Of a stretch of 38,058 bases of DNA, positions 1 to 15,165 are shown in pieces; position 1 is the first letter of the stretch, and every line of letters begins with the position of its first letter. Source of the DNA: Ramlibacter sp. (GTDB taxonomy: Bacteria; Pseudomonadota; Gammaproteobacteria; Burkholderiales; Burkholderiaceae_C); contig JAGRPN010000270.1 of assembly GCA_019449555.1 (NCBI GenBank), positions 1-38,058 on the forward strand, in the 5' to 3' direction. Below the pieces are notes generated by a model, which made no database searches, was not told where the DNA came from, and was given only the letters and a program-made list of their open reading frames with translations. The position numbers were made by a program, and so were the translations under genes.

Positions 1-325
1 AGCCAAACCACTTGTGGAAACCTATGCCGCGGAGTCGGTGTTTGCGGGCCTGCTGCCGGCGTGGGATGCATTCATGGCCGATCTGCCGGATCCTTCTCGG
101 GCCGCCTCGCTCACGTCGATGATGAAGCGGGCGGCGGGCGCGGTTGGCGTGGAACCCATGGGCGTGGTGGGAGAAGTGATTGACTATGACCCACTGTCTC
201 ACCGCGTATCCGGAGGTGGTCAGGTTTCGCTGGGGCGCGTTCGTATCCTTCGGGCGGGCGTGATGGTGCGGCGAACAGATGGCTCAGTGCGCACATTGGT
301 GGAGGCCTTGGTAGAGCCGGCTTAG
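1..325 (+). CDS. GrpE-like nucleotide exchange factor, C-terminal part (partial)
   Basis: The frame is open to the window edge, so only the last ~107 residues are present and the true start lies upstream. The C-terminal half looks like a GrpE beta-domain: a Gly-Glu followed by a short 'DYDPLSHRV' stretch, a glycine-rich turn, a 'VRILRAGVMVRR' strand, and an ending in 'LVEALVEPA', close to the family pattern of G(E)..dP..H.. then ..V..GY/GV then vL..A.V.pa. GrpE proteins release ADP from Hsp70 ATPases. The gene directly downstream (48-nt gap) encodes an Hsp70-like ATPase, which supports the reading. A dedicated exchange factor inside an island operon is unusual. Family assignment is by pattern recognition only and the N-terminal coiled coil of GrpE cannot be checked here. 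Confidence 0.55.
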   Translation, partial: AKPLVETYAAESVFAGLLPAWDAFMADLPDPSRAASLTSMMKRAAGAVGVEPMGVVGEVIDYDPLSHRVSGGGQVSLGRVRILRAGVMVRRTDGSVRTLVEALVEPA

Positions 326-372
326 CGACAGGTGATCAGCTCTGACCGATGAAATCACAGCAGGAGGGGCGA

Positions 373-1680
373 ATGAGCGGAGTACTTTGCATTGACTTTG
401 GAACCAGTTCAATCCGCGCGGTGCGGCGAATGCCCAGTGGAAAACTCAAGGTTCTTGACATCGGTCGAGTGGCCCGATCGCGTCTTGATGATGCGTCGAT
501 TAGAAGCGACATTCATATCGACGGGAAGGGTCTGCACGTCAGTTATGGCGAGCGCGCGATTGTCGCTCGCCACAAGAGTAAAACGAGACTTTACGAGTCC
601 AGCCCTAAATTGTGGCTCAAGTCCCCGAAAGACTTGCGTCGGCCTGCAATTGATGGGATCGATCTGACCCGCGAGAATCTCATCTCAGGCTTGATGGCGA
701 ATGTGCTTAGATCGTGCATCCTGGCCGGTGAGCTTAGCCCCAGCACCCTCGGCAAACTGGATATACGTATTGCGCATCCGGTCTGGCCGTCCGTTATAGC
801 TGCGGACGCCAACGCTGCGTTGCAGCGAATTTCGGCGCAAGCGCAAGGCATGGTGTTTGAACGCGATTGGGCGACGGTCCCGGTGCGCACCCTCGCGCAC
901 TTCACAGCTTTGCGGTATGCGGCGTTGCACTCGTCGGAAGATGTGATCGAGCCCGTCGCCGCCGCAGTGGAACTGTTGCCGTCAGTCGAGAATGCTAGAC
1001 GCATTTGTGCCGTGGTAGACGTTGGAGCCGGCACGACTGACATCGGCCTTTTCCAAGCGGTCGCCCCTGACCCGGATTCCCCGGTGCGGGGAAAGCTTTA
1101 TCGGCTGGGTGAAGCTCGAAGTCTTTTTAAGGCAGGCAACGTCATCGACGAGATCGTGTTGGATGTTCTCAGGTCTCGGGCAAACCGGCCGACGACGGAT
1201 GCAATTGAGGGCGTTAGCGTGCGGATTCGGCAGGTCAAGGAAGCTCTTTTCCGTGACGGATTCATCCAGGAACTTGGTGCGGAAGTTGAGGTGAAGGATG
1301 TACAGGGGCACCCTGAAGCAAAGGCTATGGGGCGAGACATTCGGACCGCGCTCGAAGCGGCTGTCCAGACCAGCGATTCGCAAATTTCCGAATTCATGGA
1401 TGCGAGGACGCACAGTGTCACGCGTCTGGAGCTAGTAATGGCTGGTGGTGGAGCTGCCATCGAGTTTATTCGTAAGGCCCTCGAAAAGCCATTCGAGGTC
1501 CGGGGAAAGTGTCTGCCGGTACTCGTCACGAAGGCGGACGACAGCGAAGACGCTGATATGAACTTATTTGGCGCAGGCCGCGGTCGCATGGCGGTCGGGT
1601 TGGGTGGGGCGAGCACAGGCTATGAGCAGCTGATCCACGAAATTCCCTTGCTAGAGCGAATCTCGACCGGGCGTCTGTAG
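373..1680 (+). CDS. Hsp70/actin-superfamily ATPase 1 (DnaK-like, no substrate-binding domain)
   Basis: A 435-residue protein with the Hsp70/actin ATPase signatures in order: phosphate-1 loop 'CIDFGTSS' near residues 6-13, the Hsp70-type 'EPVAAA' near 193-198, phosphate-2 loop 'VVDVGAGTTDIG' near 214-225, and adenosine loop 'VMAGGGAA' near 355-362. Full DnaK is about 640 residues; this protein ends after the nucleotide-binding domain, so it has no peptide-binding domain or lid and is unlikely to be a general chaperone. ATG at 373 is chosen over the in-frame ATG at 349 because AGGAGGGG lies five bases before it. It sits between a GrpE-like gene and a SNF2 helicase gene (48-nt gap to the next start). 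Inference: an ATP-driven switch that loads or regulates the helicase or nuclease. An StbA/ParM-type filament protein is the main alternative. Confidence 0.8.
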   Translation: MSGVLCIDFGTSSIRAVRRMPSGKLKVLDIGRVARSRLDDASIRSDIHIDGKGLHVSYGERAIVARHKSKTRLYESSPKLWLKSPKDLRRPAIDGIDLTRENLISGLMANVLRSCILAGELSPSTLGKLDIRIAHPVWPSVIAADANAALQRISAQAQGMVFERDWATVPVRTLAHFTALRYAALHSSEDVIEPVAAAVELLPSVENARRICAVVDVGAGTTDIGLFQAVAPDPDSPVRGKLYRLGEARSLFKAGNVIDEIVLDVLRSRANRPTTDAIEGVSVRIRQVKEALFRDGFIQELGAEVEVKDVQGHPEAKAMGRDIRTALEAAVQTSDSQISEFMDARTHSVTRLELVMAGGGAAIEFIRKALEKPFEVRGKCLPVLVTKADDSEDADMNLFGAGRGRMAVGLGGASTGYEQLIHEIPLLERISTGRL

Positions 1681-1728
1681 CTGTCTCGGTGTCACAGTGG
1701 AATGGAACTGAACTTCGAGGAGATCAGT

Positions 1729-4700
1729 ATGGGATGGGAGAAGGGCACTCAGGTCAGGCGCTTTGACAATCCCGGGAAGACGGGAAGCACAACTGGGCAG
1801 CAGCGGCAGCGGCTCAGCGGCCTCTATATTCAGGTGCGGTGGAACCAAGACGGTTCGACGGACTATGTCGCCGAGGATCAAATCGAGGCGGTAGACAACG
1901 CCACTCTGACAGACCCCTACGCCGTCCTTGCCGCCGGCCGCTTTGGCAGAGCGCTCGATTTGCGCCGCAACCTCACCCAAGTGCATTTGTCCGGGCGATT
2001 GGCGAACCTTGTCTACTCGATGGGGATCACCAAGACCGATTTCTATCCGCACCAGTACAAGCCGCTGTTGACGCTTTTGGAGTCGCCGGCAGACGGACTG
2101 CTGATCGCGGACGAGGTCGGACTGGGCAAGACGATTGAGGCAGGAATTATCTGGACGGAACTTCGCGCCAGAGAAGATATGCGACGGCTGCTGGTGGTTT
2201 GTCCGGCGATGTTGCGAGAAAAATGGCAGGAGGAGCTTCACAACAAATTCGGAATCGAAGCCATGATGGTCGATGCAAAGACATTGAAAGAGGAGCTTCT
2301 ACGCTCCTCGGCATTTGGTCCGATGAAAGCGTGGATAGCAAGTTATCAGGCGATACGCCCTCCAAAGGCCTGGCGGCCAGATGCCGACGAGGGCGCCAAG
2401 ACCAACTCAACTCGGGCCAAGCTGGCCGCCTTGCTGGATGAATACGAGGGAGGAGAACCACTGGTCGACTTGGTCGTTTTTGACGAAGCCCATTACATGC
2501 GCAATCCGGAGAGCGCTGCGAACCGGCTCGGCGAGCTGCTACGCGAGGTGTCTCATTGCCGAGTCTTATTGTCTGCAACGCCGATCAACCTGCACAGTGG
2601 GGATCTTTATCAGCTATTGCGCCTCTGCGATCCAGATCACTTTCAGTTTCAAAGTAACTTTGCCGAAATGATCGAGGCCAATCGGCCGCTCGTTCGCGCA
2701 CGCGACGCAGCCTTGCATTTGAGCAGCTCGGTGGAAGAGGTGATGGAGCCATTACGCGCAGCGGCCCTTATGCCCTTGCTCGAAGGCTCAAAGCAACTCG
2801 CAGCCATTCTGGGCACACCTCCTACAGCTGCTGACTTACTTTCATCAGCATACAGGGCCGAGCTTGCTGCGAGTCTCGAGCGAGTAAACCTTCTTGGGCA
2901 TGTGGTCACACGCACGCGAAAGCGCGACGTCCAACTTCATCGGCCTCTTCGCGATGTTCAGCGGGAGTCCATTCCTATGACTCCGTTGGAGCGTACTTTC
3001 TATCAGTTTGTGACCGATACAACGCGAGAATACGCGGCGAGGCGAGACATATCAGATGGTTTTTTGCTGGCAGCTCCGCAAAGGCAGGTGTGCAGTTGTC
3101 CTGCTGCCTTTGCCCGAGCTTGGCTTGGAAACGACGAGTCCCTGGTGGCGGACATGGCAAAGAATGTTGCGGAGGACGAGGAGGAATTCGATGAGGATTC
3201 AGACATTGAAGACATCAGCGCGTCCCTCAAGGATTTTCTCTATCAGCATCGCCCAAGGGACCTCGACGTCGCCGCGCTAGAGCGGGACGATTCCAAGCTG
3301 AAACGTTTGCTGGAAGTCGTCACTAAATTCTTTGCCGCTAACCCACAAGAGAAGTTGGTCCTCTTCACGGCGTTCCGTGGGACGGCCCAATACCTGCAAG
3401 CAAGGTTACAGCGGTCCGGAATAGGCGCCATGCTGCTGTGGGGCAACATGGACCGACCCAAGCAGGAGGTCATTCACGAGTTCGAAAACCGGCCGGAGAT
3501 ACGTGTTCTAGTGTCCACTGAAGTGGCTGCAGAAGGTGTTGACCTTCAGTTTTGCAAGGTGCTTGTCAATTACGATCTTCCCTGGAATCCCATGCGAATC
3601 GAACAGCGTATCGGACGTATTGATCGCCTGGGCCAGACCGCGGACAAGATTCACATCTGGAATCTCTTCTACGCAGAGACGATCGACGAGAGAATTTTGG
3701 GCCGACTTTTGGAGCGCCTTCACATCTTCACTCAGTCACTAGGCGAACCAGAGCCCATCGTCGGCGAAACCATTGCCAGGCTCGAAGCAGAACTGCTAAC
3801 AACAAAGCTGACGGCCGAGCAAGAAAACGCCCGCATTGAGCAGGCAGCGCAGACGCTTGAAAACGTGCGCGAGCGCCAAGAAGAGTTGGAGCGCAACGCC
3901 GCCCAAATGATTGCTCACGGCGGCATGGTGCTGGACAGAATTTCGGCGGCGCAGGAGCTGTCACGCCGCGTCACGGAACTTGACTTGGTTGTCTACGTTC
4001 AGGACTTCCTAATCCGACATGCTACTGGACATCAGTTTGCGCAGGACCCGCAGCAGACGGACGTGTACACGATCCAGTTACCACCCAAGACCGCGGCGGA
4101 GTTGGACGACTTTTGTCGACAGAACGGTATGACAGGTCAGACTTCGCTTGGCAATGGGCTTGCCCGGCCCTGTCGCTTTCTGAATAACGTCGCTGGCACA
4201 CGTCAAAAGACCATTGAAGCGATTCATCAGTTTCATCCGCTGATTCGGTTCGTCTCAGTAAAGCTGCTCAATTCTGACGACACACAGTACCCTGCTGTGG
4301 CTCTCCGATTGTCGCGTGAGAAGTTGGCGGACATGCGCCCCGGACAATACTTTTTCACGCTTCGGCGTTGGGTATTTGACGGGGTGAAAGCCGAGGAACT
4401 ACTGATGCCCGCCATCGCCGAACTTCAAACCGGCGCTCTCCTAGACGAGGAACAAACTGATCGATTCATGAATGCCGTCCGGCTGTTTGGCACAGATTGG
4501 CTTGAGGCATCCTCGGTAATACCGCCAGGGCAATCAGCAGAATTGCTTGATCTGTTGGAGGACTCGCTCGAATCCAAATTTCGCACCACGATCCAGCGCA
4601 AGCAAGACGAGAATAGTGACCGGGTGATGTTTCAGCTTCACGGCATCGATCAGCACCTTTCCGCCAGAGTCGCGGTGATGCAGGCGACACTTGAGCGGCA

Positions 4701-4863
4701 TCGGCTGTTAAACCGCAGCGGCCTTGTCAAGGCGACTCAAGGCCGCATCGACAAGCTTCAGGCTCGTTTGGCTATGAAGCGCGCACAAGTCGAGAATCAG
4801 CGCATGGTGACTCCAAGCAGCAGCTTCGTCTGTTGCGGAGTTGTTCTGGTCGAGGAGCATTGA
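1729..4863 (+). CDS. SNF2/RapA-like superfamily 2 helicase (helicase 1)
   Basis: A 1044-residue ATPase of the RapA/DrmD/DpdE-like branch of SNF2 proteins. Visible motifs: Walker A 'DEVGLGKT' (residues 128-135), Walker B 'DEAH' (252-255), motif III 'SATP' (282-285), motif V 'STEVAAEGVDLQ' (about 596-607) and motif VI 'QRIGRIDRLGQ' (626-636). An acidic stretch (about 482-496, rich in E and D) lies between the two RecA lobes, and a Glu/Gln-rich coiled-coil-like segment starts soon after the helicase C lobe (about 685-750). The last ~300 residues are unassigned. Such proteins translocate on double-stranded DNA or RNA and usually remodel nucleoprotein rather than separate strands. The ATG at 1729 is preferred because GAGGAG precedes it by seven bases; the in-frame ATG at 1702 has no clear Shine-Dalgarno. 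The stop overlaps the ribosome-binding region of the next gene. Confidence 0.9.
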   Translation: MGWEKGTQVRRFDNPGKTGSTTGQQRQRLSGLYIQVRWNQDGSTDYVAEDQIEAVDNATLTDPYAVLAAGRFGRALDLRRNLTQVHLSGRLANLVYSMGITKTDFYPHQYKPLLTLLESPADGLLIADEVGLGKTIEAGIIWTELRAREDMRRLLVVCPAMLREKWQEELHNKFGIEAMMVDAKTLKEELLRSSAFGPMKAWIASYQAIRPPKAWRPDADEGAKTNSTRAKLAALLDEYEGGEPLVDLVVFDEAHYMRNPESAANRLGELLREVSHCRVLLSATPINLHSGDLYQLLRLCDPDHFQFQSNFAEMIEANRPLVRARDAALHLSSSVEEVMEPLRAAALMPLLEGSKQLAAILGTPPTAADLLSSAYRAELAASLERVNLLGHVVTRTRKRDVQLHRPLRDVQRESIPMTPLERTFYQFVTDTTREYAARRDISDGFLLAAPQRQVCSCPAAFARAWLGNDESLVADMAKNVAEDEEEFDEDSDIEDISASLKDFLYQHRPRDLDVAALERDDSKLKRLLEVVTKFFAANPQEKLVLFTAFRGTAQYLQARLQRSGIGAMLLWGNMDRPKQEVIHEFENRPEIRVLVSTEVAAEGVDLQFCKVLVNYDLPWNPMRIEQRIGRIDRLGQTADKIHIWNLFYAETIDERILGRLLERLHIFTQSLGEPEPIVGETIARLEAELLTTKLTAEQENARIEQAAQTLENVRERQEELERNAAQMIAHGGMVLDRISAAQELSRRVTELDLVVYVQDFLIRHATGHQFAQDPQQTDVYTIQLPPKTAAELDDFCRQNGMTGQTSLGNGLARPCRFLNNVAGTRQKTIEAIHQFHPLIRFVSVKLLNSDDTQYPAVALRLSREKLADMRPGQYFFTLRRWVFDGVKAEELLMPAIAELQTGALLDEEQTDRFMNAVRLFGTDWLEASSVIPPGQSAELLDLLEDSLESKFRTTIQRKQDENSDRVMFQLHGIDQHLSARVAVMQATLERHRLLNRSGLVKATQGRIDKLQARLAMKRAQVENQRMVTPSSSFVCCGVVLVEEH

Positions 4864-4864
4864 G

Positions 4865-6484
4865 GTGGCAGATATCAAAAGCCAGCTTCAGAAGGTTAAG
4901 CAGGCGCTGACCAGCGGGGCCAGCTCCGGTGGCAAGAAGCTCTCGGCGGAGAAGCCCAAGGTCCCAGTCGCGAAACGAACTCCTCACCGCTCTGGCGACA
5001 AGATGTGCGTTCAGCCAAAGACGATTTCGCTGCCGTCGACGCCCAAAATGGTGCAGTCTTCGCAGATGGCACTCCATTCTGGGGCCGTCACTCAGGGTAA
5101 TGCTTCGGAGAGGCTGATCGTCCCGAAGTCGTCAGTATTGACGCGGCAGTCTGAGTTTCATGAGCCCGCAGTATGGGTGACCAAGGGAACCGCAACGCAA
5201 CTACTCGAAAACCCGCAAGGCCGGAAAAGAGAGGCGTTCATCGGCTTTGATTTTGGGACTGCCTATACGAAGGCGGCAGTTGGCTTATTGGACAAGGTGT
5301 TCCCAGTTGACTGGCGGGGCGTTCTTGACACTCGGTCCCCTTATCTGCTGCCAACAGAATATTCCGCATTAGCCAATGGCCGGTGTTATCTAGGACAGCA
5401 TCCAAGAGCAGGTGTGGGGGATCTGATCACAGAGCTGAAGCAGGCTTTCATAAGAACCAGCCCGACTGATGCGGAGATTTGCCGTGCGGCAGTCTTTGTA
5501 GCACTTGTTCTTCAATACGTTCGTGCTTGGGTATACGAGCATCACAGAGGAAAGTTGGATGGCAGTCCACTGCGATGGCATCTGAACATCGGAACCCCGA
5601 GCAATGGCCTGGAGGAGAACGAGAGGACCACTGCGTACAGGCGCCTCGCGTGTGCAGCGTGGTCCCTGAGCTTGCTTGATCGGGCAGAAATTAGTTTTGC
5701 GCAGGCAACCCGACTTCTGCCGTCGGGAACCGGCGTGCTTCCCCAGGATCTCGTCGAGACGGACCCGGTTCCGGAATTCATCGGTCAGTTGGCTGGATAC
5801 ACAAAATCTGCGCAGCGGCAGAAAGGGCTCCACGCGCTAGTGGACATCGGCGGCGGCACAGTCGACATGGTGACCTTCAACGTGCACTATGCAGAGGGGG
5901 ACGATACATTTCCGTTTTTTGTGCCAAGGGTCGAGCCACTTGGAACCTATGCGATGGTCGCAAACAGGTTTCGTGGAACATCACCCGAGGTGCCGCGAAT
6001 CAGTGCCGCAATTGACGACTTGATGGATGGCCAGGAGTTTTCTCGCGCAACCGGCATTTCTGTTGCCACCATTGCCTCGCTAGACGCTGAATTCTCAGCT
6101 GAAGTTGCGCGTGAAGTTGCCGCGGTTTTTTGGAAAACGCGGCGGAATCGCTACCGACAGGCTCCGGAGTGGAAACACGGTGTTCGGACGTTCGTCACCG
6201 GTGGCGGGGCACGGCTGCCCATCTATGCAGATGCCGTTGATCAAGGCGGCTTGCGGGAGAACGTTCCCTTGAATAGGGTTTCACTGCCGAAGCATCCTAG
6301 GCTTGACGAGTTCGATGCGCCTGACGACGAGTACCACCGCATATCGGTTGCCTGTGGCCTCGCAACCAACCGCCTTTCTCTTGGCGCAATCGTCCCAGCC
6401 AACCAGGTTGAGGATGATTTGTCCGCACGTGTCAAGCGGACGGCTTCTCCGCGCCCTGATCGAGATGAGCTCTATCCGCGGTGA
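4865..6484 (+). CDS. Hsp70/actin-superfamily ATPase 2 with basic N-terminal extension
   Basis: A 539-residue protein. Residues 1 to about 120 are low-complexity, rich in Lys, Ser, Pro and Gln, and start with a short helix-like segment; this may be a flexible tether or nucleic-acid contact. The ATPase core follows: phosphate-1 'FIGFDFGTAYTK' (125-136), phosphate-2 'VDIGGGTVDM' (326-335) and adenosine loop 'FVTGGGARLP' (443-452). It ends shortly after the core and, like the first Hsp70-like protein, has no substrate-binding domain. The two are too different to be a recent duplication. GTG at 4865 is chosen because GAGGAG lies seven bases upstream, one base after the helicase stop; the in-frame ATG at 4841 would overlap the helicase gene. 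The tight junction suggests translational coupling and a physical partnership with helicase 1. Confidence 0.8.
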   Translation: MADIKSQLQKVKQALTSGASSGGKKLSAEKPKVPVAKRTPHRSGDKMCVQPKTISLPSTPKMVQSSQMALHSGAVTQGNASERLIVPKSSVLTRQSEFHEPAVWVTKGTATQLLENPQGRKREAFIGFDFGTAYTKAAVGLLDKVFPVDWRGVLDTRSPYLLPTEYSALANGRCYLGQHPRAGVGDLITELKQAFIRTSPTDAEICRAAVFVALVLQYVRAWVYEHHRGKLDGSPLRWHLNIGTPSNGLEENERTTAYRRLACAAWSLSLLDRAEISFAQATRLLPSGTGVLPQDLVETDPVPEFIGQLAGYTKSAQRQKGLHALVDIGGGTVDMVTFNVHYAEGDDTFPFFVPRVEPLGTYAMVANRFRGTSPEVPRISAAIDDLMDGQEFSRATGISVATIASLDAEFSAEVAREVAAVFWKTRRNRYRQAPEWKHGVRTFVTGGGARLPIYADAVDQGGLRENVPLNRVSLPKHPRLDEFDAPDDEYHRISVACGLATNRLSLGAIVPANQVEDDLSARVKRTASPRPDRDELYPR

Positions 6485-6512
6485 GCAGCGCAATTGCCTA
6501 GCCGACTTAGCC

Positions 6513-6542
6513 TTGATGCAGGACAAACAACTCACCTATTCT
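6513..6542 (+). promoter_or_regulatory. Candidate sigma-70 promoter inside the cargo operon
   Basis: TTGATG (6513-6518) and TATTCT (6537-6542) are separated by 18 bases, each matching the consensus at four of six positions. They lie in the only sizeable gap (160 bases) of the island operon, about 100 bases before the next start codon. The gap is locally AT-richer. It may let the downstream three genes be expressed separately. Not tested. Confidence 0.3.
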
Positions 6543-6644
6543 AAGTAGGAAGGATCTCTGTTCATCGTTACCTCTTAGTATCAGAAATGGCGTTCGAGCA
6601 CACCCTTCTCAGAGTCCTTCCGGCGCTTGCTACTTAAGGTCGAA

Positions 6645-7970
6645 ATGAGTGACGAATCGATTCTTCCCTTTCTGAGTCAATTTGACCCCCCGGAGCAGTC
6701 AGAGGGCGGGCTCGACCCGGTTGGACTGTATTCGATAGCTGATGCTTTAGGCGTGTTGCTCGCGCCTGGCGTGCGGGAGCGGCAGTCCAACCCGCGGTAT
6801 CTGACGCTCGCGCTGGTCGGATTCGCCGCATGTGGTGACGAGCTGGTAGCGGCTGGCGATAAGAAGCAACTTCCTCCATGGCTAGTGTACGAATGGATAG
6901 TGGTTGAGTCGCTTGTGCGGCAGCTACCCGCTTTGGAGGGTATTCCCGGTAGACGCAAGGTCCTGACGACGCGAGCCGCTGGCGATGTGGTATGCATGAG
7001 AACGTATTTGAAGACGCCGACCGTGTTCGGTCTTCACGGGATCTATCGAGTCCTGGGCATCAAGACCGGACTCTTTGACGCAGAGGGTCACGTGCTCGAT
7101 CACGGCTACCGTGTGTTGTCAGCGTGGCAGGAGCGTCATGGGCTTGCCGGCTTTCTGGACGGGCAGGGTCCGGGCGCAGATTTTCGACGTGCAATCGAAC
7201 GCACCGTTCATAGCAGCTTGGAAGCAGGTTACGGGCGCGACCCGGGGCCTGCGGTGAGAGAGTTGATCGCCACCCATCTGAATCCAGTGGAGCCAGCGAC
7301 AATGGAATGCGAAGCGCTGTGGACCGCGATCACAGACAATAGCCATATGAGGAGTGAGTACGCGCGCTGGCTCATTTCGGATGACGGGCAACGAAAATGG
7401 CGAGAGGCTGCAGGTTCAGAAGCGGCGTTTCAGGCGTGGCTGGCGCCTCATGCGAGTTTGCCTATGCAGCAACTTCTCAAGACGATCCGCTCGTTTGAGC
7501 AGCTTGCCAGATTGTTGACGGACGCCTTCGAGGAACTGAGATGGCGCATGACGCAGGAGCGGGCGCCTGTCGATTCAGCGTGGCTCGGTCTCGGTGACTC
7601 GTTGAAGTTGGCGAGCGAAACTAGCCTCGGCGCATATGAAGAATCCCTCGTCGATCTAGGCGAGGTCAATCCTGCCCTGCGGCTGCGCGCGGAGCGAGCA
7701 TTTTCATGGATTGGCGAAACCACCAACTCAGCCGACTTCGCTGCGCACTTGCTGGCACATCACGACCGAGTGCAGCGAGCGAAGCCGCCAAACGGCAAGC
7801 GTTCGTGGTTTGACACCTTTGGCGATGGTCGAACAGCTGTGCGCCCAGGCTACACGGTGGATGAGTTTTCAGCAAAGCCGGGCTTTTTCGTGCAGGCGTA
7901 TCGCACCGTGCCAATCTGGTCATTCGCATCGCATCTGCGATTGGTCAATGGCGAGGAGGGCCAGGCGTGA
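6645..7970 (+). CDS. Unrecognised protein between Hsp70-like and PLD genes
   Basis: A 441-residue, apparently soluble, mostly helical protein with no catalytic motif I recognise. The N-terminal part (residues ~20-75) has a 'GLYSIADALG' segment, then 'PGVRERQSNPRYL', then an aliphatic helix. That order faintly recalls the opening of DUF6361-type proteins (sI.Dal...PG....q.RYl), but this is memory, not a match, and should be searched. The middle is rich in Trp and charged residues. ATG at 6645 is chosen because AAGG lies six bases upstream; a TTG 18 bases earlier has no good site. Its stop overlaps the start of the PLD gene by one base (TGATG), so it is translationally coupled to it. Inference: an adaptor or sensor for the PLD/helicase 2 module. 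Confidence 0.7.
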   Translation: MSDESILPFLSQFDPPEQSEGGLDPVGLYSIADALGVLLAPGVRERQSNPRYLTLALVGFAACGDELVAAGDKKQLPPWLVYEWIVVESLVRQLPALEGIPGRRKVLTTRAAGDVVCMRTYLKTPTVFGLHGIYRVLGIKTGLFDAEGHVLDHGYRVLSAWQERHGLAGFLDGQGPGADFRRAIERTVHSSLEAGYGRDPGPAVRELIATHLNPVEPATMECEALWTAITDNSHMRSEYARWLISDDGQRKWREAAGSEAAFQAWLAPHASLPMQQLLKTIRSFEQLARLLTDAFEELRWRMTQERAPVDSAWLGLGDSLKLASETSLGAYEESLVDLGEVNPALRLRAERAFSWIGETTNSADFAAHLLAHHDRVQRAKPPNGKRSWFDTFGDGRTAVRPGYTVDEFSAKPGFFVQAYRTVPIWSFASHLRLVNGEEGQA

Positions 7971-10045
7971 TGGCCCGCGTAAAGAACGTAGATGCGGGTC
8001 AGCGGCGGCTGCTGTCGCTGTGGGAGCCGCCAGCGAAAGCCGGCGCGGCTGTCGGTGTGTTGGCGACAACGTTCACGCTGGACACAGCCTTATTCGAAGA
8101 AGAGTGCCTGGCGCGATTCGCCGGAGTGCAAAGTGATCCTGCACGAGATGGGGCGTTGTACCGGATTGAGCGAGAAGAAAAGCTCGCATCTCTGTGCGCT
8201 GTCGTTATCGCAGACGTCCATCATTGTGGCGGCCGTAGAAGCCTGCGGTGGGATCTGCTTGCGGCTCGTCCAGCCTCCGGCGTAATGCACGCAAAGATCA
8301 GTCTGCTGGCGTGGAGCGACCATGTTCGCGTAATCATCGGATCGGCCAACCTGACCAAAGATGGATATCGACGCAATCAAGAGTGCGTTGCTGCGATTGA
8401 CTTCGACGCAAGTTTCACCGATCGTGGGTTATTGGATCCACTTTTGGCGTACTTGCGTGAGTTGCTTTCGCTGACAGTGGGCCCTGCGCGTGCGCGGGCA
8501 GAACAGTTGCTGCTATCGGTGGATGAGCAGTTGCCGCGGCATACGGCAGGGGCGAAGGGAATACTAAGGCGCCTTATTCTCATCGGGCCAGGCCGGGCAA
8601 ATTTGTTCGACCAGTTGGGGCTTCACCTGCCAACGGCACCGGCGGGAGAGGCTCACGTCGTTTCGCCATTTTTTGATGTTAAGCCGCGTCAAAATGGGCC
8701 TGAACGGGTCCTATGGTCGATGATGAAGCAGAGGGGGGCCGCGGCGTTGCATCTGCATGTGGCGGGAGAGGAGGCTCCGGAATCGAAGCGGTGGCGTCTT
8801 GCTGTCCCACAGCACTTATTGAACGCAACTCCGAAAGGTCGTCAGGGTGTCGTCACCGAGCTGCACCCCGTGCAAGTGGCGAATGTGCCCACCGACTTGG
8901 GGGCGGATCGGCGGCCTTTGCATGCCAAGATGTTGTCGCTTTCGCACGAGACCTGGACCGCGACAGTTATCGGGTCGAGCAACTTCACATCCGCAGGGGT
9001 GGGCCTGAGTCCGATAGCCCGCAATTGGGAAGCGAACGTGCTTTACTTGCTTCGTGCCCATGAAGGTGACGGCGCTCGCAGGCTGCTTGAGGCTAGAGGT
9101 CTGCGCGGTGGCGAAGCTGTCGATCTTTCTGTTGGCGTAGATTTTGAGCCGGCAATCGACCCAGACGGAGAGGAGAGTGACGCGCCTCCACCGCTGCCGG
9201 CGTTCTTTGCAGAAGCTACGTTGGATGCGGCAGGTCCGCAAAGTTACGAGTTGAGAATCGAATTTGCTGGAGCCGCCCCTAAAGGCGGGTGGACAGTTCG
9301 CCAGGACCTGGTAACTCTTGCCGATCACGCTTCATGGTTCTCACAGGGGCAGCCGACCTCTATGAGGGTTGCGTTGCGGCGAGAGGGACCACCGCCGGCA
9401 ATGTTGACCGTTCATTGGGGGAACGCCGCGCATGTGTCACCCTGGCCGGTGAATGTTGTCTCGGCCGAAGTGCTTCCTTCCCCGACCGAACTGCAAGGGT
9501 TATCGCTAGCCGCTTTGCTGGACTTGCTGAGCTCGGCACGGCCGCTGCACGAGGCATTGCGAGTCTGGCTGCGACGCCAGCCCAGCGATGATGATGCAAA
9601 TGTAGACGACGTCGTCGAATTGGTGGATCCACACGCAAAAGTGGACACCAGCGGGTTCCTAGTGAAGCGTGTCCAGCGTGCTTGCTGGGCGATGCGTCAG
9701 TTGCGCGAAAAGCTCGAGCAGCCTGTCCTCTCGACAGCGGCAATGGCATGGCGCATGAATGGACCGGTTGGAGCAGCGGCCGTTTTAGAGGCGATGCAGC
9801 GTCAGTGCGACCCAGGTCTTCCCGATGAATGGGCGTTTTTGATGTGTGAGATGTGGCGTGAGCTCAGCGAGGTGCAACTGCAAGGCGCGAGCGGCCGACC
9901 ACCACCGCAGGAAGCGCAGCAACTACTCTCGGACTTTCTGGCAGCTCTTCACACGCGGATTGGGCAAGCCATACATGCATGCTCCGCACGCATGCAGTCG
10001 TATGTGTCAGAAGCCATGAGGGGGAACGTCAATGCGACTGCCTGA
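7970..10045 (+). CDS. Phospholipase D-superfamily protein with two HKD motifs (predicted nuclease)
   Basis: A 691-residue protein with two half-sites of a PLD active centre: H107-x-K109 followed by 'IIGSANLTKDG' (G124), and H318-x-K320 followed by 'VIGSSNFTSAGVG' (G335). Two complete HxK...GSxN motifs imply one active site formed within a single chain, as in PLD-type nucleases and phosphodiesterases. In defence operons such proteins are usually DNA nucleases, and the neighbouring SNF2 genes support that over a lipase. There is no signal peptide. Residues beyond ~390 are unassigned. ATG at 7970 overlaps the previous stop; GTG at 7967 is an alternative start, and GAGGAGGG at 7953-7960 serves either. 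The last 14 bases overlap the helicase 2 gene, suggesting the two proteins are made and act together. Confidence 0.85.
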   Translation: MARVKNVDAGQRRLLSLWEPPAKAGAAVGVLATTFTLDTALFEEECLARFAGVQSDPARDGALYRIEREEKLASLCAVVIADVHHCGGRRSLRWDLLAARPASGVMHAKISLLAWSDHVRVIIGSANLTKDGYRRNQECVAAIDFDASFTDRGLLDPLLAYLRELLSLTVGPARARAEQLLLSVDEQLPRHTAGAKGILRRLILIGPGRANLFDQLGLHLPTAPAGEAHVVSPFFDVKPRQNGPERVLWSMMKQRGAAALHLHVAGEEAPESKRWRLAVPQHLLNATPKGRQGVVTELHPVQVANVPTDLGADRRPLHAKMLSLSHETWTATVIGSSNFTSAGVGLSPIARNWEANVLYLLRAHEGDGARRLLEARGLRGGEAVDLSVGVDFEPAIDPDGEESDAPPPLPAFFAEATLDAAGPQSYELRIEFAGAAPKGGWTVRQDLVTLADHASWFSQGQPTSMRVALRREGPPPAMLTVHWGNAAHVSPWPVNVVSAEVLPSPTELQGLSLAALLDLLSSARPLHEALRVWLRRQPSDDDANVDDVVELVDPHAKVDTSGFLVKRVQRACWAMRQLREKLEQPVLSTAAMAWRMNGPVGAAAVLEAMQRQCDPGLPDEWAFLMCEMWRELSEVQLQGASGRPPPQEAQQLLSDFLAALHTRIGQAIHACSARMQSYVSEAMRGNVNATA

Positions 10046-12986
10046 GTCTCTCAATCTTTATGTTGCAGGGCATCTCTCACAGGCAGATGCTTGCCGACAG
10101 ATGGCATCAGCGCAGGAGGTCATCAAGCGCTTTACCGGTCAACCCGGAGTCATCTTGGGCGACGAGGTTGGCATGGGCAAGACCTTCGTTGCGCTGGCTG
10201 TCGCGTCAGCATACATAGTGCAGGACTCGTCTCGACCCGTTGTCGTTATGGTCCCCGGTAGGGTGGTCGAAAAATGGAAACGTGATAGCGAGACATTCAG
10301 GATCGCGTGCTTGCGAGCAGAACATGATCGCGATCGCGTTCGTGTGCGCTCAGCAGAGACAGGTGTTGAATTTCTGAAACTTCTTGACGATCCAGCACCA
10401 ACCCGCGCTACCCTTATCGTGCTCGCCCATGGCGCGCTCAACCGTAAGCTGGGAGACAAGTGGGTGAAGCTGGCGGTGCTGCAGGCCGCCATCAAAGGAC
10501 GGCACGGGGTGGCGGCGCTTCGACAAAGACTGGCGCGGTTCGCACCTATGGTGCTGATGCAGTCAAAGATACCGGGTGAAAAATACGAATTGATCCTTGA
10601 CTTGCTAGAAAGGCCGGCCGGAGAGTGGAAGCAGGTACTGGTGCGAGCGAATGAACTGGAGGAAGCCGATGATGATCCAGTACCGCAGGTTTTTATAGAG
10701 GCGCTAGACCGCGTAGACCTATCGGATGCGTTTGAACGCGTCGTTAAGGTCATTCCGGAGCGCGCATCTGCAAATCTCAAGGAACGAATTCGGCAGGCGC
10801 GAGACGAGCTAGATCGCGCCGACGGGGGTGTGTTACCGGGCATCTGGCGCGCAACACTCAAGCGAATGAACCTTGCCCTGCCGCTCCTCGTGCTCGATGA
10901 GGCCCACCACGTGCGAAACGCGGGGACGCAACTGGCGACCTTGCTGGCCGCGAGGCGCGATGACCTTGATGCTGTTGGCGGTCAACTTGCGGATTGCTTC
11001 GACCGAATGCTGTTTCTGACGGCCACTCCGTTCCAGCTCGGGCACGCCGAACTTCGAAATGTGGTGATGCGTTTTGAGGCAGTGAACTGGAAGAGTCGCA
11101 GGGTGCCTCGGATGCAGCGCGCTGAATTCGAGGCGAGTATCGCTGAGTTGCATATGAACCTAAACGCCATGCAAGTTGCGACTGAACGGCTCGAGCGTGC
11201 TTGGAAGCGTCTGATCGCGAGCGATGCCGATGAAGCAACTCAGGTTTATGGCCTGTGCTGGTGGGACTGGGGCAATGAGGAGGATCTCGAGTGCATGTCG
11301 GTAGCAAACGAACGCCTGCGAAGCCTGATGCTGGCTTTCAGGAACGCGCGATCGGCCATACTCGCGGCTGAGGCATCCCTGAGGCCCTGGTTGTTGCGCA
11401 ATTCTCGCTCTGCGTTTTTGCCGCCGCCATACGACATGGTTTCGAGGCGCGTCCGCATTGAGGGAGCCGCAGTCCGGCGCGACTGCGGTGAGCAAGAGTT
11501 CAGCGGCGACACTACGGGTGGTCTTCACGTAACAGCGCAGAACGCGCTTGCTTTTCTCCTTGCCGCGAGAGTGATGACCTTGCCCAACAGCGGAAGAGTG
11601 TTCGCAGAGGGGCTTGCATCGAGCTATGAAGCATTGCTGGACACGTCTCGCGAGGACGCTGAGGAGCCGGCTTCAGGTGAGAGCCGGTTGGAGGTGCCAC
11701 GTGAGCGGTGGTACACGGACCACTTGCGGGCGGAGGCCCACGCTATGGGCACGCAAGGCCGTGATCTTCATCCGAAAATGAAAGCAACCATCGACCTCGC
11801 GATGTCGTTATGGCGGAAGGGAGAGAAAGTTCTGATCTTCTGTCATTATCGGCAAACAGGTAGTGCCCTGCATCGCTACCTGTCTGAGGCGATGCTCAAG
11901 GAAGTTGAGGATAGAGGCTGCGCACAACTTGGCTGCACGCCCGCGGAGTTACCGTCTGAGCTACGCAGGATTTCGGATAACTTTGATCGTGATAGACAGG
12001 CGGCTCGCGAAGTTGCGGCAATTCTCGATGAGCTGCTTGTCCAGCATGACGTGGTGGGCAATGCGAAGATTCGCGATGCAACACTTGAGATTGTTCTTAG
12101 GTTTCTTCGTACGCCCACCTTCCTAGTAAGGTTCGGTGGGCTTTTCAGGGGGGATACCCCCGAAAACTGGGTGCCAGATCTTTTCGACAGCAGAGATTCC
12201 TCTGGAATAAGTCTTTGCGAAATCATCCGACAGTTTTTGGATTTCCTGGCAAAACGGTCTGGCGATAGTGACCGACTCGCCTATCTGGCGGCTCTGCAAA
12301 AGGTGCAGACAGGCACGCACGCTGGTCCCGAGATTGAAAGCTCGTTCGCCGAAGATGAAGAGGGTGAACGAGCCCGTTTAGTTGCTAATGTCCGCCGCGT
12401 CTATGGCCGGACCCTCCCTGAAACCCGGGAGCGGATCATGTTGACGTTCAACACACCTTTTTATCCCGAAATTCTGATTGCCAGCAGTGTGATGGCCGAA
12501 GGCGTCGACCTGCATATGAATTGTCGGCACGTGATTCACCACGATCTCGACTGGAATCCGAGCTCGTTGGAGCAGCGCACAGGGCGCATCGATCGCCTTG
12601 GTGCCAAGGCGGAACGATGTGGGCAATCCATTCGCGTGTACTTACCATATGTGGAGGGTTGCCAAGACGAGAAGCTCTTCCGTGTGGTGATGGATAGAGA
12701 GCGTTGGTTTGGTGTCGTCATGGGGGCTGAGGAGGCGATGTCGCGCGTCCTCAAGGCAAGTGCATGGGAGGTCGAGCGCATGGCGCTCGAGTTGCCAGTG
12801 CCGCAGTTAATGGTTGATCAACTGCGCCTTAGGCTTGCCGCAGAAATACCGGACATCGCAATTGATAAGCCTGTGAAGCTAATCGCCACGACTGCAAAAA
12901 GCGAGGCGTCGCGCGGCAGCGTAGTGATGCGAGTTCCTGAACCGGCAATCACGTCCACAGGCGCATCTAACCATGCGGCAAAGTGA
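10032..12986 (+). CDS. SNF2-type superfamily 2 helicase with large insertions (helicase 2)
   Basis: A 984-residue ATPase. Motifs: Walker A 'GDEVGMGKT' (43-51), motif Ia 'VVMVPGRVVEKWKRD' (70-84), Walker B 'DEAHH' (289-293), 'TATP' (330-333), a helicase C lobe with 'VLIFCHYRQTGSAL', 'SSVMAEGVDLH' and motif VI 'QRTGRIDRLG' (848-857). The family norm is about 100 residues between motifs Ia and II; here there are about 200, with a charged helical insertion, and the stretch between the lobes is also very long. It belongs to the same broad group as helicase 1 but they are not close copies. ATG at 10032 has GAGGGGG upstream and lies inside the end of the PLD gene. It is the last gene of the operon before the convergent integrase. 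Expected role: DNA translocase or remodeller feeding the PLD nuclease. Confidence 0.88.
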   Translation: MRLPESLNLYVAGHLSQADACRQMASAQEVIKRFTGQPGVILGDEVGMGKTFVALAVASAYIVQDSSRPVVVMVPGRVVEKWKRDSETFRIACLRAEHDRDRVRVRSAETGVEFLKLLDDPAPTRATLIVLAHGALNRKLGDKWVKLAVLQAAIKGRHGVAALRQRLARFAPMVLMQSKIPGEKYELILDLLERPAGEWKQVLVRANELEEADDDPVPQVFIEALDRVDLSDAFERVVKVIPERASANLKERIRQARDELDRADGGVLPGIWRATLKRMNLALPLLVLDEAHHVRNAGTQLATLLAARRDDLDAVGGQLADCFDRMLFLTATPFQLGHAELRNVVMRFEAVNWKSRRVPRMQRAEFEASIAELHMNLNAMQVATERLERAWKRLIASDADEATQVYGLCWWDWGNEEDLECMSVANERLRSLMLAFRNARSAILAAEASLRPWLLRNSRSAFLPPPYDMVSRRVRIEGAAVRRDCGEQEFSGDTTGGLHVTAQNALAFLLAARVMTLPNSGRVFAEGLASSYEALLDTSREDAEEPASGESRLEVPRERWYTDHLRAEAHAMGTQGRDLHPKMKATIDLAMSLWRKGEKVLIFCHYRQTGSALHRYLSEAMLKEVEDRGCAQLGCTPAELPSELRRISDNFDRDRQAAREVAAILDELLVQHDVVGNAKIRDATLEIVLRFLRTPTFLVRFGGLFRGDTPENWVPDLFDSRDSSGISLCEIIRQFLDFLAKRSGDSDRLAYLAALQKVQTGTHAGPEIESSFAEDEEGERARLVANVRRVYGRTLPETRERIMLTFNTPFYPEILIASSVMAEGVDLHMNCRHVIHHDLDWNPSSLEQRTGRIDRLGAKAERCGQSIRVYLPYVEGCQDEKLFRVVMDRERWFGVVMGAEEAMSRVLKASAWEVERMALELPVPQLMVDQLRLRLAAEIPDIAIDKPVKLIATTAKSEASRGSVVMRVPEPAITSTGASNHAAK

Positions 12987-13115: not shown

Positions 13116-15008
13116 TCAAACAGGGCGTCTTGTCTTCCGGTTTAGTGCGTCCTGGAGAGCAGCCAAGCCGGCCTCGGCATCAAACGGCGCAACGGAAGGT
13201 AGCCCAAAATCAAGCCGCTCAATGGTCTGCACTACTTCTTCAGTTATCACATCCTTGCGATAAGTGGATCCCAGCACGGATTGGCTTCGCTTGTGGCCGC
13301 TAATTTGGGCAGTCATCGCTTCGGACAAACCGAGCCGGTTCAGGCATTCGGATGACAGTGTGTGCCTGAACGAATGGAACACCTTGCGCCCGTTGCGCTG
13401 CCAGCCCAAACGCCGCAAATAGGTGGAAAACCATTTAACCGCAGCCTTGCTGTACCCCTTGGTCGCATCGTGCAATAGCTCCGGGAACAGCCTCTCGTGG
13501 CCTTCAGTCGCTAGCCGGTCGCGCCACTGGATCAGGCCGCAGCGGATGAGGAGCGGATGAATCGGCACATGCCGAATCGAGCTTGCGTTCTTCACCTTCT
13601 TGCGGCCTTGCTCGTCCTCCTCATTGAAATCGATGTACCAAACGCCCGATTCGGTCTGGCGTATGTCGCTGAGGGAAAGCTGGCAGATTTCGTTGATCCG
13701 TGCGCCCGTAAAGAGTCCGAGTAGCGGCAGCCAATAATAGGACGGCAGGAACTCACGGTAGGTACCTGCCTTGGTCAACTCGCCGCGGCCAGTAGCGATC
13801 CAGGGCGTGCTGAAGATCTTCTTGAGGTCGTCTCGGGTGAAGAGGTCCCGCTTGGAATGAGCCGAGGCGGTTCTTCTGCCCCGACGCCCGGAACCTAGGC
13901 CAACAGCCGGGTCGTCGGCGATCCATTTTTCCTGCAACAGCCACTCGAACATTCCACAGAGCCACTGCATCCGCTTGGTACATTCCGCGGCTGAAATGCG
14001 GGGCCAAGCCGTCCCACTAACCGCCTGGATGGATTCGGTGATCGACAGGCTCCCTTTCTGTAGGCGGACCTTGTTCTCGTTGGCCGGGACGGTAGGAAGC
14101 AACTGGTCGCGATAGCGGCGCAGCAGATCGCGATCGACGTCGCAGAGACGGGGATTCTCCGTCAACTCCACGAATAGGTCACAAGCTGCGCGAATCCTTC
14201 GAGCTTGATCCTCACTGCAGGACTTGCCGCGCTCGGCCATGTAGGCGGCAACCGCGTCGGACACGTTCTTGTTGGTCTTCTTGCCTGCCGGGACGGCCGC
14301 ACGAGCCGCACGTGCTTCGGCCAGCTGCTCAGGCGTGATCCGCGCTGCCAATCCCTGCCGCAACGCCTCCACATCCGCAACTGCGGCTGACAGCTTGTCC
14401 AAGCTCACCTGCGCGCCACCGGCAGGCGCGAACCCGAGCTTTGGGTTCTCCGTCACCTCGAATAGAGCCAGGTTGCACTCCATCCCAGCGATCAGGTCTG
14501 GTGCTATCAGCGGAACGTCGTCGGCGAAAAGGCGCAGGACGCCGGCCTGGTTCGTGTCGATCGCCACTTGCGGCATCTGGGACGGAAGCGGAACGTCGAA
14601 TCCGCCGGTCTCAGGGTCGCGATCCATCTCCGAGAAGGGAATGATGAAGCCAGGCAGCGCGCCGGGTTCGTAGAAGAGGCGAAGGCGTTTTTGGCTCGCT
14701 TCCCTGAGCAAGAACTCGACGTCTATGCCGGACGCTGCCGCCGCATCACGGAGCGGCACGAACCCAGGGCGCGCCAGCGCAGGCGAGCCGATCTTCAGTT
14801 GTACGATGTCCACGGCAAGGCGGTCGAGTTCGGCAAAACGGCGTCGCCAGGAGCACAAGATTTCGGCGCCGACGATCTTGGCAAGTGGGAAGTCCCGGAG
14901 CCCGGTGGTGGCGATCAGTTCGGCCTTGCCGATGACGTGGCGCAGTCGCTTGGGAACGGCCAGCCGGGCGAAATAAACGCCGCTATTACGCCTGAAAATA
15001 CTCTCCAC
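13116..15008 (-). CDS. Tyrosine recombinase / island integrase
   Basis: A site-specific recombinase of about 630 residues. Catalytic residues are visible: Arg437 in 'FTGARINEI', His545-x-x-Arg548 in 'HSFRHT', His572 in 'SGHKRS' and nucleophile Tyr583 in 'GSTYRK'. The N-terminus ('IFRRNSGVYFARLAVPKRL') looks like the DUF6538-type arm found on many tRNA-targeting island integrases. A middle segment (about 230-360) resembles a core-binding SAM-like domain. It is longer than typical phage integrases (about 400), because of the long region before the core-binding domain. I choose GTG at 15008, which has GAGG upstream; the frame stays open to a GTG at 15080 without a ribosome site. Same strand as the tRNA-Gly and downstream of it, as expected for the enzyme that inserted this island. 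Confidence 0.92.
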   Translation of the reverse strand: MESIFRRNSGVYFARLAVPKRLRHVIGKAELIATTGLRDFPLAKIVGAEILCSWRRRFAELDRLAVDIVQLKIGSPALARPGFVPLRDAAAASGIDVEFLLREASQKRLRLFYEPGALPGFIIPFSEMDRDPETGGFDVPLPSQMPQVAIDTNQAGVLRLFADDVPLIAPDLIAGMECNLALFEVTENPKLGFAPAGGAQVSLDKLSAAVADVEALRQGLAARITPEQLAEARAARAAVPAGKKTNKNVSDAVAAYMAERGKSCSEDQARRIRAACDLFVELTENPRLCDVDRDLLRRYRDQLLPTVPANENKVRLQKGSLSITESIQAVSGTAWPRISAAECTKRMQWLCGMFEWLLQEKWIADDPAVGLGSGRRGRRTASAHSKRDLFTRDDLKKIFSTPWIATGRGELTKAGTYREFLPSYYWLPLLGLFTGARINEICQLSLSDIRQTESGVWYIDFNEEDEQGRKKVKNASSIRHVPIHPLLIRCGLIQWRDRLATEGHERLFPELLHDATKGYSKAAVKWFSTYLRRLGWQRNGRKVFHSFRHTLSSECLNRLGLSEAMTAQISGHKRSQSVLGSTYRKDVITEEVVQTIERLDFGLPSVAPFDAEAGLAALQDALNRKTRRPV

Positions 15009-15050
15009 ATCTGCCTCACTTTGTATGAGTGCGCTGTATGTGAAGGGCGA

Positions 15051-15082
15051 AAGTGCGGTTTCCTCAAGGGAATCAAGCACTT
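15051..15082 (-). other. Hairpin between tRNA-Gly 3' end and integrase start
   Basis: On the minus strand AAGTGC pairs with GCACTT, enclosing a second stem TTCC/GGAA, with a few T residues after it. It could be a weak terminator for the tRNA transcript, an attenuator for the integrase or part of an integrase arm site. The stem spans the alternative GTG start at 15080. Confidence 0.3.
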
Positions 15083-15091
15083 ACAGAGATA

Positions 15092-15165
15092 TGGAGCGGG
15101 TGAAGGGAATCGAACCCTCGTATGCAGCTTGGGAAGCTGCCGTTCTACCATTGAACTACACCCGC
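15092..15165 (-). tRNA. tRNA-Gly (anticodon CCC)
   Basis: Read on the minus strand, this is a complete cloverleaf: seven-base acceptor stem GCGGGTG/CACCCGC, D arm GTTC...GAAC, anticodon stem GCAGC/GCTGC around loop TTCCCAA (anticodon CCC), and T arm GAGGG/CCCTT around TTCGATT. The discriminator is T and CCA is encoded. Including CCA it is 74 nt. The 3' end faces the integrase and is the presumed integration target; because the gene is intact, the attachment site must restore the 3' end after insertion. It reads GGG codons. Confidence 0.96.

Follow-up and report, generated by a model that had tools for sequence, protein, structure and literature searches.

Do seven co-directional genes at one end of a Ramlibacter contig make up one defence machine, or several smaller units that share an island? 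The window analysed here is an entire contig of 38,058 nucleotides (JAGRPN010000270.1 of Ramlibacter sp. assembly GCA_019449555.1; C105 of genome G000). An earlier note had taken its first seven genes for a single undescribed system made of a GrpE-like protein, two Hsp70-like ATPases, two SNF2 helicases, an unassigned protein (here X) and a phospholipase D (PLD)-family nuclease. Our analysis favours, with a probability of about 0.6, a composite defence locus that targets DNA and sits on an integrative island at a tRNA-Gly gene. It would combine a DrmD-like helicase paired with an Hsp70-fold ATPase (HspB), an X-PLD-SNF2 trio of Azaca/PDC-M27 type and a partial PDC-M61 candidate; the trio would cut, HspB would switch the motor, and the pair would cooperate with such trios. 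Gene content, gene order, conserved catalytic motifs and conserved pairings are observed directly, while from the sequence we infer an anti-phage function. Azaca (ZacA-ZacB-ZacC) was reportedly described by Millman et al. in 2022; PDC-M27 (A-B-C) and PDC-M61 are candidate systems in PADLOC.

The DrmD-like helicase and its HspB partner

The first SNF2 protein matched the PADLOC DrmD model (PDLC02623) over nearly its whole length, with 1021 bits, and the NCBIfam DrmD model with 450.5 bits, under the cut-off of 610. A tblastn search of plasmids with this protein (E ≤ 1e-50) returned seven records, six of which carried an HspB gene next to the helicase gene (Aminobacter, Shinella, Leptolyngbya, Cyanobacterium HL-69 and two Sphingobium plasmids). 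In Leptolyngbya, HspB precedes the DrmD-like gene, with 98 bases between them. The same search with HspB gave four records, all with an adjacent DrmD-like gene, and among 299 genomes from the phylum the HspB profile found proteins in four (the window's own, G673, G532 and G542, the last on the L038 contig), each again adjoining a DrmD-like gene. Adjacency held in all ten HspB loci opened (window, L038, L051-L055, L086, L062 and L064), or eight non-redundant loci once L052 and L062, redundant in the tree, are counted as one, and likewise both Sphingobium plasmids. The proposal that a chaperone-type ATPase goes with a DNA translocase was supported by this pairing of genes; for the exchange factor that went with it, no evidence was found. 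HspB of the window and that of Mariprofundus (L038) share 30% identity, and scans of the HspB proteins against PADLOC gave weak matches or none. The HspB profile also scored an HspA-like protein in G020 (2e-10), where no DrmD-like neighbour was detected by profiles; this protein was counted as HspA and not as HspB.

A tree of 22 proteins, including two DISARM DrmDs, placed the nine HspB-linked proteins together with a Methanomethylovorans helicase in one group (98/98), with the nine alone at 93/96. The group was separate from the two DISARM DrmDs, in a tree with several long branches and unsure deep joins. The Methanomethylovorans locus (L056), the seventh plasmid record and an archaeal one, had no HspB match; directly after its DrmD-like helicase stands an Hsp90/sacsin-like ATPase (L056:11758-18242; PADLOC TmtA 2e-75, Pfam SACS 2.6e-18). 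We tentatively suggest, at somewhat less than even odds, that DrmD and HspB make up a hitherto undescribed defence core of two genes, whose SNF2 translocase is switched by an Hsp70-fold ATPase lacking a substrate-binding domain. An Hsp90/sacsin-like ATPase could take the place of this partner, as in Methanomethylovorans, and the core would combine with nuclease modules of Azaca type. No description of the pair was found in the one paper collection searched, where DrmD and Hsp70 were named together only in unrelated work.

Both Hsp70-fold proteins of the window keep the DFGT, D[VI]G.GT and GGG motifs of the nucleotide site, for phosphate and adenosine, and a seven-member HspB profile had a weak match (E 0.009) to the nucleotide-binding domain of DnaK. 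Beyond the last of these motifs, HspA has 75 and HspB 91 residues. The DnaK substrate-binding domain is far longer, so neither protein has room for a peptide-binding domain of this kind. The Hsp70-like assignment therefore stands for the nucleotide-binding fold and its site motifs, and falls for the substrate-binding domain.

These folds also bear on the idea that the locus is not for defence, and that a RapA-like helicase and an actin/Hsp70-fold protein serve DNA repair or island maintenance. The DrmD-like protein does match RapA (153 bits, under cut-off), and the best NCBIfam relatives of HspA are actin-like proteins, MamK (2.5e-8) and BeeR, along with MreB (6.6e-4), all under cut-off; HspA bears a weak resemblance to actin-like chains as well. 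Near relatives, however, lie a HamA-annotated gene, McrBC, Cas genes, type I restriction genes and SIR2. Since defence genes adjoin several relatives, and the trio has matches among both established and candidate families of defence proteins, a role outside defence appears very unlikely.

The surroundings of the pair vary. On the Aminobacter conjugative plasmid (L051:3825-11707), genes for a RecB-like nuclease, an AAA ATPase and a McrC-type protein lie directly upstream of DrmD-HspB, with the HamA-annotated gene near. In Mariprofundus (L038:766-5416), a protein of 412 residues and an MkoC-like helicase come ahead of the pair and are possibly a further module. In G673 (L062:10211-18265), the pair is followed by a large protein of 1255 residues and another SNF2-like protein.

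The X-PLD-SNF2 trio

In PADLOC, the PLD protein matched ZacB (2.8e-15) ahead of PDC-M27B (9.5e-6), and in Pfam it matched PLDc_2 (2e-10). It carries two HxK...GSxN half-sites, whose motif residues are invariant across four aligned proteins, in agreement with the nuclease first proposed. ATPase motifs are intact in both SNF2 proteins of the window, which were likewise correctly called helicases. The trio SNF2 matched, in order, PDC-M27C (7.5e-40), DrmD (5.6e-29) and ZacC (2.1e-22), and falls in the tree into one group with the helicases of three further trios (100/99).

X of the window had no Pfam, NCBIfam or PADLOC match. A search with an alignment of X and its relative in G330 gave five loci (L036 to L040), of which L039 is the G330 contig itself and ends inside X, and L040, with a match of 17 residues, was dropped. 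X relatives were 28-53% identical. The trio was complete, collinear and on the same strand in the window, L036, L037 and L038; identities to the window for X, PLD and SNF2 were 53/52/53% in L036, 32/31/40% in L037 and 30/33/40% in L038. Upstream of the trio lie Cas4-like and WYL genes in L036, a locus that begins 2.5 kb upstream, and type I specificity subunit and SIR2 genes in L037. Another locus, L049, had an SNF2 match, with X and PLD not detected by profiles.

Direct tests of X as an A-subunit gave weak results. By hhalign, X reached ZacA with a Prob value of 0.7 and PDC-M27A with one of 0.4 (on the percent scale used here for hhalign), and 81 of 3000 shuffles did as well as the X profile against M27A; in a PADLOC scan of five X proteins, one matched ZacA (E 0.023). 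An N-terminal X profile, chosen after a motif had been seen there, scored three ZacAs at levels reached by 0, 4 and 65 of 3000 shuffles. The clearer connection runs through L048, an IMG/VR locus with Cas4-like, A, ZacB-like PLD and M27C-like SNF2 genes. Searched with the X profile, its A protein reached 23.6 bits (E 3e-8 for this single locus; 0/3000 shuffles; hhalign 93.8%), and in PADLOC it matched PDC-M27A (E 2.5e-18). A profile of X plus L048 then scored 24.7 bits against M27A (0/3000), and one of X plus L048 plus M27A scored the three ZacAs at 0, 2 and 9 of 3000 shuffles and a Sphingobium A-like protein at 0/3000. By profile comparison X appears to belong with M27A, the L048 A protein linking the X profile to PDC-M27A, and it probably belongs with ZacA.

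Among 369 genomes of the class, and again among 60 of the genus, the PLD profile matched a single one, the window's own; the X protein was found in 2 of 274 class genomes (its own and G330). Plasmid searches with X of the window and of L038, and searches of viral contigs with the PLD and X alignments, gave no match. As the genes are rare in relatives, they were probably acquired. A protein of ~500 residues with an N-terminal LSKSK...QC.KRL motif was seen in L036 (24-1550), L048 (4995-6509) and L064 (10490-11977); it adjoins the trio in the first two, where it has PADLOC Cas4 matches, and comes after DrmD-HspB in the third.

Layout of the locus and its leftmost genes

The seven plus-strand open reading frames of the earlier note were confirmed, as was their place in an island at a tRNA gene (Table 1). 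They are followed by a convergent tyrosine integrase, which adjoins the tRNA. GC content is 0.55-0.60 over the leftmost 13 kb but 0.65-0.72 past the tRNA, where seven of ten open reading frames scanned had ordinary chromosomal-type Pfam matches; genes there (window:15551-35336) include penicillin amidase, mechanosensitive-channel, arginase, ABC transporter, class I tRNA synthetase-like and LysR-type genes. A pattern search for the left att site turned up, apart from the window itself, nothing but the tRNA-Gly(tcc) genes of contig C252.

Table 1. Genes and features of the island in the window
Feature	Position	Strand	Basis or remark
C-terminal fragment, PDC-M61A-type, 107 residues	2..325	+	Cut by contig start
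HspA, Hsp70/actin-fold ATPase of PDC-M61B type	349..1680	+	PDC-M61B E 1.7e-34; three nucleotide-site motifs
DrmD-like SNF2 helicase/translocase, HspB-linked group	1702..4863	+	PADLOC DrmD 1021 bits; tree
HspB, second Hsp70-fold ATPase	4841..6484 (in-frame GTG start possible at 4865)	+	DrmD-like gene adjacent in 10/10 loci opened
X, putative A-subunit of Azaca/PDC-M27-type trio	6645..7970	+	Relatives 28-53%; bridge via L048 to PDC-M27A
PLD-family nuclease, ZacB/PDC-M27B-like	7967..10045	+	PLDc_2 2e-10; two HxK...GSxN half-sites
SNF2 translocase of trio, PDC-M27C/ZacC-like	10032..12986	+	PDC-M27C 7.5e-40, ZacC 2.1e-22
Tyrosine integrase of island	13116..15080	-	Phage_integrase 6.6e-10
tRNA-Gly(ccc), likely insertion site	15092..15165	-	ARAGORN

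The leftmost fragment matched PDC-M61A (E 4.6e-9) over the last 58 positions of the model, which at E ≤ 1 also matches 3 of 14 control genomes; in hhalign it reached 86% with the C-terminal end of the protein adjoining the HspA relative in G020. PDC-M61 A and B genes are adjacent in the window, A being recognized through its C-terminus only, and a similar pair occurs in G020. The GrpE identity first given to this fragment was rejected: with only the C-terminal 107 residues present, no Pfam match was found at E ≤ 1, hhalign gave a Prob value of at most 1.4 against 17 GrpEs, and 1204 of 3000 shuffles scored as well. The HspA protein was present in 2 of 61 relatives, the window's own genome and G020. 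The PDC-M61B model matched 45 of 274 class genomes; the others are probably ordinary DnaK-type proteins (next best E 1.1e-8), and these counts were dropped as evidence of distribution, since the strong match is confined to the window. Plasmid and genome-contig searches with protein P0002 gave no match. In G020, which is of the same genus (L057:10688-14906), the PDC-M61A/B-like pair is followed by another protein, which, judged by eye from a motif, resembles DndB.

Close spacing had been part of the case for a single system, and it holds for most junctions: X/PLD and PLD/SNF2 overlap by 4 and 14 bases, gaps of 23 and 21 bases precede HspA and the DrmD-like gene, and DrmD and HspB overlap by 23 bases or are 1 base apart, depending on the HspB start. 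The exception is the 160 bases that set HspB and X apart, and so the genes form two blocks, not seven tightly coupled genes. An integrated seven-gene machine, with the chaperone-fold ATPases in charge of assembling and gating the nuclease and the two helicases, would fit the unbroken plus-strand block with its overlaps. It would also fit Mariprofundus, where five of the seven genes (DrmD-HspB-X-PLD-SNF2) stand together in the order of the window at 30-44% identity. However, the complete set was seen in the window only, the PDC-M61-like genes stand beside other genes in G020, and the GrpE role was not supported. We regard such a machine as improbable; the co-occurrence that the earlier note proposed to check was seen for five genes, in Mariprofundus, and for all seven only in the window.

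Modules, mechanism and known systems

The remaining question is whether the modules act together. If they are independent neighbours, a PDC-M61-like candidate, the DrmD-HspB pair and an Azaca/M27-like trio would be stacked in one island, each acting alone. Modules do occur singly (L036, L037, L051-L054, L057, L062 and L064), and the 160-base HspB-X gap fits this picture. The tree joins the window DrmD with that of Mariprofundus and the window trio helicase with that of L036; with different nearest kin for its two helicases, the modules may move separately. Nevertheless, the pair-then-trio order recurs in Mariprofundus at the identities given above, and both Sphingobium plasmids have DrmD-HspB followed by ZacA-like (E 0.0017) and ZacB-like (6.9e-13) genes, with a second SNF2 not detected by profiles. 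An A + PLD module adjoins the pair in four of ten loci (three of eight when non-redundant). These recurrences make independence unlikely, though clearly less so than the integrated machine.

Several results weigh against the composite locus that we favour, beyond the divergent kin of its helicases. The pair stands without an A + PLD module in six of the ten loci, and it precedes only two of the four complete trios; L037 and L036 (2.5 kb of upstream sequence covered) have the trio without it. Together with the remote Azaca/PDC-M27 type of the trio, these counts speak against the single undescribed system of the earlier note, which was not supported. The X-ZacA link is itself weak, and it loses further strength when narrower profiles are used or the direction is reversed: the full X profile scored two ZacAs at 4 and 179 of 3000 shuffles, the third being without score, and a ZacA profile scored four of the five X proteins at 301, 32, 16 and 998, the fifth being without score. 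The predicted structure of X (pLDDT 72) had no PDB match at E ≤ 0.001, and that of HspB (pLDDT 32) was unusable. The left end of the island is missing, and the first gene is cut off with it, because the window is an entire contig and its readable part starts at the contig edge.

For the composite locus, the following mechanism is proposed. The trio would be the cutting unit, its SNF2 motor travelling on invading duplex DNA that the PLD nuclease would cut, and X may couple or gate motor and nuclease. HspB would act on the DrmD-like motor as a switch set by its ATP state rather than as a folding chaperone, and DrmD-HspB could serve as a second, modular motor/sensor cooperating with such trios. 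Self DNA would probably be spared through sensing of DNA or replication state and not through a methyl mark; the readable part yielded no modification enzyme, and so methylation-based self-recognition is not supported.

Among known systems, DISARM and Dpd had been set aside at the outset for want of a methyltransferase, DrmA/B and DpdA. Nine proteins from the readable part of the island were scanned, and the matches listed (for each of the two helicases, the best 25 families at most) indeed included no methyltransferase, DrmB or DpdA. The two helicases did match the DrmA model (4e-52 and 2e-19), at scores under their best models, which we take as a shared helicase core. DISARM membership was rejected, with DrmD under the curated cut-off and no qualifying DrmA, DrmB, methyltransferase or DrmC in the readable part. 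The PLD protein was not accepted as DrmC (best DrmC model 7.3e-6 versus 2.8e-15 for ZacB; NCBIfam DrmC 30 bits, cut-off 133). The first SNF2 protein resembles DISARM DrmD in its PADLOC match, but differs in falling under the NCBIfam cut-off, in lying outside the two sampled DISARM DrmDs and in having HspB as partner. DrmD-like matches can thus come from loci other than DISARM. Dpd was likewise rejected, the matches listed including only helicase DpdE matches and a weak DpdK match of the PLD protein.

CnuD of the CoCoNuTs offers a parallel to HspB, as an Hsp70-fold ATPase inside a defence system (PMC11090510). As described there, CnuD has nucleotide- and substrate-binding domains and goes with McrBC homologues, whereas HspB has no room for the latter domain and goes with an SNF2 helicase; the McrBC genes just upstream of DrmD-HspB in L051 are a partial likeness to CoCoNuTs. 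The same text argues that CnuD domains are fitter for RNA binding than for protein remodelling, and by analogy RNA binding is an alternative role for HspB. It also mentions McrBC branches prevalently tied to a DISARM-like system awaiting separate publication; given the McrBC genes of L051, the DrmD-HspB pair could equal that system, which would count against its novelty. The pair is the part most worth following, and it suggests that chaperone-fold ATPases are able to act as DNA-translocase switches.

Parts of the set resemble named systems. The first two genes match PDC-M61A (C-terminus) and M61B, but DrmD-HspB comes next in the window and another protein in G020. The trio has the gene order and similar sizes of PDC-M27 (L085), its SNF2 is closest to M27C and its X is tied to M27A through L048; unlike PDC-M27, X of the window does not reach the M27A model and the PLD protein fits ZacB better than M27B. 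With Azaca it shares the A - PLD - helicase order of three ZacA-model loci, the matches of PLD to ZacB and SNF2 to ZacC, and the N-terminal motif of X. In both comparisons the second and third reference genes were assigned by position. One source lists a PLD-like domain for Azaca (PMC10952713), and another counts ZacC among SF1/SF2 helicases (PMC12278908). Differences from Azaca are that X lies beyond clear direct profile detection, the helicase is nearer PDC-M27C, and DrmD-HspB stands upstream. The trio would accordingly be classed by sequence as a new variant within the Azaca/PDC-M27 kind, and the locus links the PADLOC candidates M27 and M61, Azaca and the DrmD-like group in a single modular picture.

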